Positions 47,163 to 48,879 of a stretch of DNA of 64,000 nucleotides are shown in pieces. The stretch is from contig CAMCVK010000001.1 of assembly GCA_945881865.1 (NCBI GenBank), positions 62,001-126,000 on the forward strand, read 5' to 3'. The notes beneath the pieces are model-generated. The model was not told the DNA's origin, ran no database searches, and saw nothing but the letters and a program-made list of their open reading frames with translations. How positions within the stretch are numbered: position 1 is the stretch's first letter; each line of letters begins with the position of its first letter. Made by a program: the position numbers and the translations under genes. This DNA comes from Fimbriimonas ginsengisoli Gsoil 348 (lineage in GTDB: Bacteria > Armatimonadota > Fimbriimonadia > Fimbriimonadales > Fimbriimonadaceae).

Positions 47163-47639
47163 CTAGTTTAGAGCAGAAACCGGCTGGCGGTCGTGGAAAA
47201 TATCGTTAATCACGGCCTGGAAGTCGCGAATCGATTCGAAGTCGCGGTAGACCGAGGCAAAGCGAACGTAGGCGACCGGATCGATTTCGTGCAGTTCGCC
47301 CAGGACACGGTCGCCGATCCTTGGCGTTTCGACTTCGTCGTCGACTTCCATGAAGAGGGAGCGCTCAATCCGGTCCACCGCGTCGCGCAGGACTTCCATT
47401 GGAATGCGCCGCTTTCGGCAGGCCAACACCATGGAATTGAGAACCTTATCGCGGCTGAATTCCTCGCGAGAGCCATCGCGCTTCACAACGAATAGTCGCG
47501 GCCTTTCGGCGCGCTCATACGTCGTGAATCTACGTTTGCAGCGAGTACATTCTCGCCGCCGCCGAATCGAGTCTTCGTCCGCCGTTGGACGAGAATCCAG
47601 CACCTTCTGATCGGCAAAACCACAAAACGGACATCTCAC
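47163..47639 (-). CDS. nrdR: Transcriptional repressor NrdR
   Basis: An ATP/dATP-sensing repressor of ribonucleotide reductase genes, 158 residues. The N-terminal zinc ribbon ([16 protein letters not shown] and [17 protein letters not shown]) is followed by an ATP-cone ([29 protein letters not shown]). The GTG at 47639 is the start because NrdR proteins begin MRCPFC. The longer frame to 47768 reads through the promoter. It has a strong promoter and an operator-like palindrome directly upstream, and it precedes nrdJ, so autoregulation of the nrdR-nrdJ operon is expected. Confidence 0.96.
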
Positions 47640-47650
47640 AAGAATTCGGC

Positions 47651-47675
47651 TCCGACCCCATATGTTGGGGACGGA
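47651..47675 (-). promoter_or_regulatory. Operator-like palindrome at the nrdR start site
   Basis: TCCGACCCCA and TGGGGACGGA form 10-bp arms with one mismatch around TATGT. The palindrome overlaps the predicted transcription start. The centre CCCCATATGTTGGGG is only loosely like the NrdR box consensus, so the binder is a guess. Confidence 0.55.
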
Positions 47676-47678
47676 GTA

Positions 47679-47707
47679 ATGATAGACCACAAGGGGTTGA
47701 TTGTCAA
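47679..47707 (-). promoter_or_regulatory. Sigma-70 promoter of nrdR-nrdJ
   Basis: On the minus strand TTGACA (47707-47702) and TATCAT (47684-47679) are separated by exactly 17 bases. Transcription would start near 47672, giving a leader of about 33 nucleotides to the GTG. Confidence 0.85.
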
Positions 47708-47715
47708 GCGGTTTT

Positions 47716-47804
47716 TTATCCACTTTTTTCCCTTCGGTTTTCCCCAGGGAAATCCGTGAGTTTTCCACCGGTTATCGGCGAATTGTGGAAAAGGTTGTGG
47801 AAAA
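47716..47804. promoter_or_regulatory. Cluster of five DnaA-box-like 9-mers
   Basis: Forward: TTATCCACT (47716-47724), TTTTCCCCA (47738-47746) and TTTTCCACC (47761-47769), each with one mismatch to TTWTNCACA. Reverse: TGTGGAAAA at 47784-47792 and 47796-47804, both perfect matches, in tandem 12 bp apart. They fill the gap between the mcsB stop and the nrdR -35 element. Confidence 0.75.
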
Positions 47805-47806
47805 CC

Positions 47807-48802
47807 TCAGGCCGGGAACAGATCGCGCAGCAGCTGGGCCCGGTCTAAACGGGCATCACCTTCACCAATCGTCGGGCGAATCGCGAGGGCCGTGAGGGCA
47901 TGATCAACCGGTCGCGGGCCGGCCGGAAAACCCTCAATCTGGTCCACCGCCGCCCAGCGAATCCACGCGAGGCAGCGGAGAGAGTCGGCAAGCGAGAAGG
48001 CGCGGCTGCGAAGGACGAAGTCGCGCACTTGCGCGGCATGGTCGGTGATGTGGGCGAGGCCCATCTTCTCCCGCTCCAGTCGCTCTTCTTCCACCAGGTA
48101 TTCCACCGCACCCCGAAAATCTGGCAACGAGTCGTGCTGCACCGAAACCTGCGCGAAAGCGCCAATCGCCCGGCTGGACTCCCCAAACAACCCCCGAACC
48201 ACAATCTTCTGGGCGCCAAGCGCTCGAATCACGTCGTCGATCCGGCGGCTCTCGCGAAGTGCGATGAGGTGCAGCATGGCCGATTGCCGCCGCCCCGCAC
48301 CGAGGTTTGCCGGCGATGCGGCAAGAAACCCGAGGCTTGGTGCCCAGGCGAAATCGAGGGCATCGGCCATGTGGACCACTGCTTCGTTCGCCACTCGGTC
48401 GGCACTTTGGATGTCCCATCCGCCCACAATCGCCTGCACCCGCAGATGGTCCTCCTCATTGATCATCAGGCTCAGCGTGCGCGATTCGTTGAGCAAGAGC
48501 GCTCGGCCCGGCAGGGTCCATTCGAACTCAGGCGAGACCAAGCGGCAGCCCACAAGGTAGTCGCGCTCGGCGTTCGTAAGCGACCGATTGATGATGAGCG
48601 GGTCCTTGACCACGCTCGGCGACGATTTTGCCGCTTCGATCACCTTGCCCATGATGACCATGAGCTCCGGCGAATCGGCCCGGTTGGGAAACCGATGCCC
48701 GCGCAAATTGCGCATCAACCGGGTTCGGGTGCTGAGAACGACATCGTTGACCGGTGACTCCTTCGTGAGCCATTCCGGCCGCGGGAGGGAGCCCAAAACC
48801 AT
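47807..48802 (-). CDS. mcsB: McsB-like protein arginine kinase homologue lacking the active-site cysteine
   Basis: ATP:guanido phosphotransferase fold of about 331 residues. Recognisable blocks are VVLSTRTRLMRNLRGHRFP (nucleotide-binding arginines), LMINEEDHLRVQ and LGFLAASPANLGAGRRQSAMLHL. In active McsB and in creatine/arginine kinases the last block has a conserved cysteine (ACPTNxGTGLR); here Ser is at that position and a Leu is Arg. The C-terminus (DARLDRAQLLRDLF) keeps part of the domain that binds phosphoarginine. No mcsA, ctsR or clpC is adjacent. I prefer the ATG at 48802, preceded by GGAGG, to the GTG at 48835. It may be a low-activity kinase or a phosphoarginine-binding regulator. 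Confidence 0.85.
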   Translation of the reverse strand: MVLGSLPRPEWLTKESPVNDVVLSTRTRLMRNLRGHRFPNRADSPELMVIMGKVIEAAKSSPSVVKDPLIINRSLTNAERDYLVGCRLVSPEFEWTLPGRALLLNESRTLSLMINEEDHLRVQAIVGGWDIQSADRVANEAVVHMADALDFAWAPSLGFLAASPANLGAGRRQSAMLHLIALRESRRIDDVIRALGAQKIVVRGLFGESSRAIGAFAQVSVQHDSLPDFRGAVEYLVEEERLEREKMGLAHITDHAAQVRDFVLRSRAFSLADSLRCLAWIRWAAVDQIEGFPAGPRPVDHALTALAIRPTIGEGDARLDRAQLLRDLFPA

Positions 48803-48879
48803 CCGCCTCCAAGATTCTGCGCCTTCGGCCCGCACGGTTCAAATTACCGCACGCCCGAAGGTGTCAAACTTATTCGTCA

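Follow-up and report, generated by a model that had tools for sequence, protein, structure and literature searches.

Among described systems, the closest to the locus studied here is the nrdAB operon of E. coli, which encodes a class Ia ribonucleotide reductase (RNR). This operon has three DnaA boxes, one of them specific for DnaA-ATP; nrdAB is activated by low DnaA-ATP or by DnaA-ADP on the high-affinity boxes and repressed when DnaA-ATP is high (reviewed in PMC8203912). In vivo, E. coli DnaA binds almost exclusively to double boxes with a gap of 2 or 3 bp, one of which is the nrdA site (PMC11317965, which calls the regulation of transcription by DnaA poorly understood). DnaA regulation of RNR genes has also been proposed for B. 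subtilis and C. crescentus (reviewed in PMC8203912). Our search of the open literature returned no paper combining DnaA boxes with a class II RNR, and nothing relevant on DnaA in Armatimonadota. The claim of the earlier note on this DNA that no such arrangement had been described therefore stands for nrdR-nrdJ operons in the open literature, but not for DnaA control of RNR genes as such, which is known or proposed in the three bacteria above.

The locus analysed here lies in a stretch of 64,000 nucleotides (the window). Like E. coli nrdAB, it has predicted DnaA boxes upstream of the promoter, double boxes spaced by 12 bp (in E. coli, gTTATCCACAaagTTATGCACTt; PMC11317965) and a repressor, NrdR (for nrdAB, PMC4009431). 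Unlike in nrdAB, the operon begins with nrdR and encodes a class II RNR (nrdJ), the phylum is a distant one, the boxes number up to five or more in an 11–12-bp array that is phase-locked to the NrdR boxes, and the box core is TTTTCCACA. With the B. subtilis and C. crescentus proposals it would share a replication initiator acting on RNR transcription; those concern other phyla, and no phased array is reported for them in the review text consulted (PMC8203912).

The boxes lie between a McsB-like gene and nrdR (Table 1). As nrdR starts with a GTG at 47639, the interval 47640–47806 picked out by the earlier note is exactly the intergenic gap, with a GC content of 47% compared to about 60%. Read towards nrdR, it contains two perfect boxes, three one-mismatch boxes, a sigma-70 promoter and two NrdR boxes; the three one-mismatch boxes are oriented opposite to the perfect tandem pair. 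The promoter, TTGACA-17-TATCAT, agrees with the sigma-70 consensus at 11 of 12 positions. Both the promoter and the operon of nrdR followed by a B12-dependent RNR had been recognised in the earlier note, and the scores of both genes are above the model cut-offs. The nrdR and nrdJ coding regions are separated by 34 bp, and nrdJ is the sole member of the Ribonuc_red_lgC family that a search for this family detected in the genome. A second layer had been missed: the tandem NrdR boxes, 32 bp apart, overlap the promoter. The NrdR-box consensus of Rodionov and Gelfand is reportedly acaCwAtATaTwGtg. As in other tandem NrdR-box promoters, the two boxes of this RNR promoter are whole helical turns apart; unlike those promoters, it has a DnaA-box array upstream, which is undescribed for them in the literature that we found. 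The score of the McsB-like gene falls below the cut-offs of the McsB models (at least 385), and this gene may therefore be a divergent McsB member.

Table 1. Coordinates of the features of the nrdR-nrdJ locus in the window.
Feature	Position	Strand	Remarks
DnaA box TTTTCCACA	47796..47804	-	perfect; distal in the 12-bp double box; 16.8 bits, the maximum of the oriC-trained matrix
DnaA box TTTTCCACA	47784..47792	-	perfect; proximal in the double box; matches TTWTNCACA and the oriC-trained matrix
DnaA box TTTTCCACC	47761..47769	+	one mismatch; 23 bp from the next box; 14.1 bits
DnaA box TTTTCCCCA	47738..47746	+	one mismatch; 13.8 bits
DnaA box TTATCCACT	47716..47724	+	one mismatch; closest to the -35 element; 12.9 bits
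-35 element TTGACA of the nrdR promoter	47702..47707	-	kept across the family
-10 element TATCAT	47679..47684	-	17-bp spacer
NrdR box 1 AATCAACCCCTTGTGG	47687..47702	-	within the -35/-10 spacer
NrdR box 2 CCCCAACATATGGGGT	47655..47670	-	just 3' of the expected transcription start
nrdR, transcriptional repressor of RNR genes	47163..47639	-	TIGR00244, 161 bits (cut-off 125); GTG start
nrdJ, B12-dependent (class II) RNR, 1226 aa	43448..47128	-	NF005736, 1938 bits (cut-off 1737)
McsB-like (kinase) gene	47807..48835	-	162 bits to McsB (cut-off 500); stop codon adjoins the array

When 9-mers matching TTWTNCACA with at most one mismatch are counted as boxes, the five boxes span exactly 89 bp (47716–47804), compared to at most two per stretch of about 90 bp elsewhere in the window. 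Five boxes were reached in none of 20,000 local dinucleotide shuffles, and two perfect matches in 2 of 20,000. The pattern is not abundant in the genome, since its 39 perfect matches in the whole 3.23 Mb are outnumbered by those of the reversed control pattern (58). Nowhere else in the genome do two perfect matches lie within 100 bp of each other, and the pair at the nrdR locus is also its only strict 12-bp double box. These genome-wide statements are based on pattern searches plus about 481 kb of sequence stretches. The cluster and the tandem pair reported in the earlier note are thus borne out, and the genome scan that it had called for revealed no second such pair of perfect matches.

The earlier note had also advised comparing the nrdR upstream region in relatives, and there the array recurs. 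Of the 61 family genomes, 52 gave an NrdR homologue, and upstream regions were taken from 50 loci, in 43 of which nrdJ follows nrdR. The statistics below are based on the 39 promoters with clear NrdR boxes; the 11 remaining loci mostly have no NrdR box above the score threshold (loci without nrdJ downstream included) or were left out as too short (L167) or because of a misplaced anchor (L175). A wider NrdR scan gave mostly other phyla and was not used for conservation. In nearly all 39 cases the NrdR boxes are 32 bp apart, box 1 being in the -35/-10 spacer. Repeats of (T)GTGGAAAA precede the NrdR-boxed promoter in about 40 relatives (22 genera), in steps of 11–12 bp and in fixed phase with the promoter, and repeats of GTGGAAAAC upstream of NrdR box 1 can be recognised by eye. 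The 124 bp upstream contain 56 TTWTNCACA sites (at most one mismatch) in the 39 promoters, compared to 10.2 in shuffles (maximum 21), and an unbiased 7-mer search upstream of NrdR box 1 ranked GTGGAAA and GGAAAAC at the top. The box positions relative to NrdR box 1 have a period of 11.2–11.3 bp (R = 0.75), a value reached by none of 5000 random sets (each position counted once per genus; 37 positions, 16 genera). Pair spacings, which require no anchor, peak at 11–12, 22–23 and 33–35 bp, with no peak at 17–20 or 30–32 bp. Because the sequences are related, the counts are not independent and these family statistics should not be read as strict probabilities.

The array is not uniform within the family: in eight of the 39 promoters no site reaches 8 bits with the matrix described below, indicating decay or loss of the array in some genera. 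In genus g12, nrdJ is apart from nrdR, and it is the nrdJ promoter that has tandem NrdR boxes with DnaA-like boxes upstream (L309 and L310). Genus g30 has no detectable nrdJ, yet double boxes are present near nrdR. No close nrdJ homologue was found in genomes G030, G049, G060, G015, G041 and G001, most of which have nrdR, and these must therefore rely on another RNR; despite this, a strict double box precedes nrdR in G060. Beyond the family but within the phylum, NrdR boxes are frequent in the 20 nrdR promoters of other families that were compared, but the array is absent from them, so that it looks like an innovation of this family.

The same box code is found at the likely replication origin. 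In Fimbriimonas ginsengisoli, the subject of the one complete-genome paper for the family's presumed class, dnaA, dnaN, recF and gyrB are scattered and no typical oriC was found (PMC4072686); such scattering is consistent with the presumed placement of the source genome in Armatimonadota/Fimbriimonadia. Upstream of recF, many relatives have two boxes 12 bp apart and a third about 88 bp further on, followed after 10–13 bp by AT-rich trio-like repeats such as TTAATAGTAACAATAG. This resembles the DnaA-box plus DnaA-trio unwinding system, including its reported 10–13-bp spacer (PMC8287927). The loci concerned are L260 (contig C4 of the source genome G000, about 155.4–155.8 kb) and L257–L286. On C4 the GC skew has its minimum at about 140–165 kb, with recF at about 155 kb; in the complete relative G010, recF is at 459 kb and the cumulative GC skew has its low plateau at about 460–550 kb. 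As boxes and a trio-like tract thus coincide with a recF gene at or near the skew minimum, the region upstream of recF is likely the oriC of the family. No box cluster was found in the region near dnaA of the source genome, on a contig other than that of nrdR. A weight matrix was built only from the recF-upstream sites (consensus TTTTCCACA); it is independent of nrdR, but not of the general DnaA consensus, with which these sites had been picked. The five boxes of the window score 12.9–16.8 of 16.8 bits with this matrix. In the 39 promoters it detects 39 sites of at least 10 bits, compared to 4.8 in shuffles (8-fold) and 2.1 in segments drawn at random from these loci, and in 224 kb of the source genome the nrdR cluster is the densest, with five sites compared to at most two elsewhere. 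The DnaA of the source genome (TIGR00362, 444.6 bits) has a conserved recognition helix: in the alignment with 8btg, the solved DnaA chain that matches best, RDHSSMMHAYKKI corresponds to RDHTTVIHAHEKI.

The 2–3 bp between the boxes occupied by E. coli DnaA give box-to-box distances of 11 or 12 bp, a spacing found both in the window pair (12 bp) and in the family peak. Strict double boxes occur 34 times in the 61 genomes, 19 with the 12-bp and 15 with the 11-bp spacing, compared to two for the reversed pattern (2 and 0, respectively). Their neighbours include recF (six genomes), a Hda/DnaA-like AAA+ gene (four) and nrdR (three, including the window). In the four genomes with the AAA+ gene, the double boxes lie between it and a multihaem cytochrome/5'-nucleotidase-like gene (L230, L239, L248 and L252). 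Single cases were observed at the ftsA-ftsZ junction and at dciA, scpA, IMS-family polymerase, guaA, trigger factor and DNA C5-methylase genes (L243, L251, L256, L249, L245, L250 and L254); these cases hint at a DnaA regulon. Several further double boxes lie inside open frames or at genes without a link to replication.

We considered whether the repeats could be something other than binding sites for DnaA. A chance cluster in AT-rich intergenic DNA is hardly credible: single 9-mers with one mismatch are indeed common, with 43 in the window, but the local shuffles never gave five boxes, and conservation and phase-locking of the array in relatives already refute this explanation. The repeats might instead be bound by another transcription factor, or constitute phased A-tracts or an UP element, their likeness to DnaA boxes being superficial. 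In many relatives the motif is degenerate, with a GGNAAAA core; AAAA is its best conserved column, and the repeats nearest to the promoter overlap the UP-element zone. Phased A-tracts are expected to have a period of about 10.5 bp, however, which differs from the 11.2–11.3 bp measured here; GTGG is as enriched as AAAA, the sites are found by a matrix derived from oriC alone, and double boxes recur beside replication genes. We therefore regard this explanation as improbable, although it is the strongest competitor.

If the repeats are DnaA boxes, their main role might lie elsewhere than in transcription. The earlier note had suggested a replication origin as an alternative, in line with several predicted DnaA boxes in an AT-richer tract. 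The skew of the nrdR contig, C1, falls through near 109.7 kb without a switch, and in G010 nrdR, at 2.07 Mb, is remote from the skew minimum near 0.46–0.54 Mb, where recF lies; on C4 the minimum is likewise near recF, with its boxes and DnaA-trio-like tract. On the GC skew of C1 and G010 an origin at nrdR was therefore rejected; the likely origin is on a different contig, upstream of recF. The cluster might also serve mainly for DnaA titration or as a datA- or DARS-like site controlling DnaA-ATP, any effect on nrdR being incidental. With five boxes, two of them perfect, it is the densest cluster in the genome parts examined, at least equal to the likely oriC. But the phase of the array to the promoter and the NrdR boxes is fixed across genera, which makes a titration site less likely, and in genus g12 the array accompanies nrdJ rather than nrdR; we consider a titration or control site quite unlikely.

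The operon with its NrdR boxes, the phased DnaA-type boxes, the conservation in the family and the box code shared with the likely oriC can all be read directly from the sequence. On this basis we propose, with a probability of about three in four, that the nrdR-nrdJ promoter is under dual control, by cooperative binding of DnaA to the array and by NrdR repression. DnaA would bind cooperatively to boxes in tandem, some strong and some weak, at about -48, -70, -93, -116 and -128 from the expected transcription start, in steps of 11–12 bp (a 9-mer plus 2–3 bp) or multiples thereof. Transcription of nrdR-nrdJ would then be set by the level of active DnaA, which we infer to be the ATP-bound form. 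NrdR, the first product of the operon, would repress from its two boxes, which overlap the -35/-10 region, when nucleotides signal sufficiency. The placement of every box upstream of the -35 element leads us to expect activation when DnaA occupancy is low to moderate, with odds slightly better than even; repression at high DnaA-ATP, by analogy with E. coli nrdAB, is possible. The proposal of the earlier note that DnaA boxes control nrdR-nrdJ is thus well supported by the conservation, the DnaA-specific 11–12-bp spacing and the match to the likely oriC boxes, while the origin that it had offered as an alternative is not supported. A more specific version is tentative, and we would give it less than an even chance: the array may be a lineage-specific platform for a DnaA filament in fixed register with the RNR promoter, in which about 8–10 slots of 11–12 bp read DnaA-ATP stepwise and NrdR reads nucleotides, together setting the cell's only detected NrdA/NrdJ-type RNR, and which evolved apart from E. 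coli nrdAB.

The analysis yields a DnaA box code and a candidate oriC, upstream of recF, for the family, and the phase-locked array is a natural promoter series for testing how DnaA regulates transcription. Because the row of boxes is conserved across the family, the supply of DNA building blocks is probably tied to the control of replication in these bacteria. If this is true, the coupling between dNTP supply and DnaA, so far demonstrated chiefly for the class I and class III RNRs of E. coli, would extend to a B12-dependent RNR in a distant phylum, where the same DnaA-plus-NrdR logic would probably have been reached independently.
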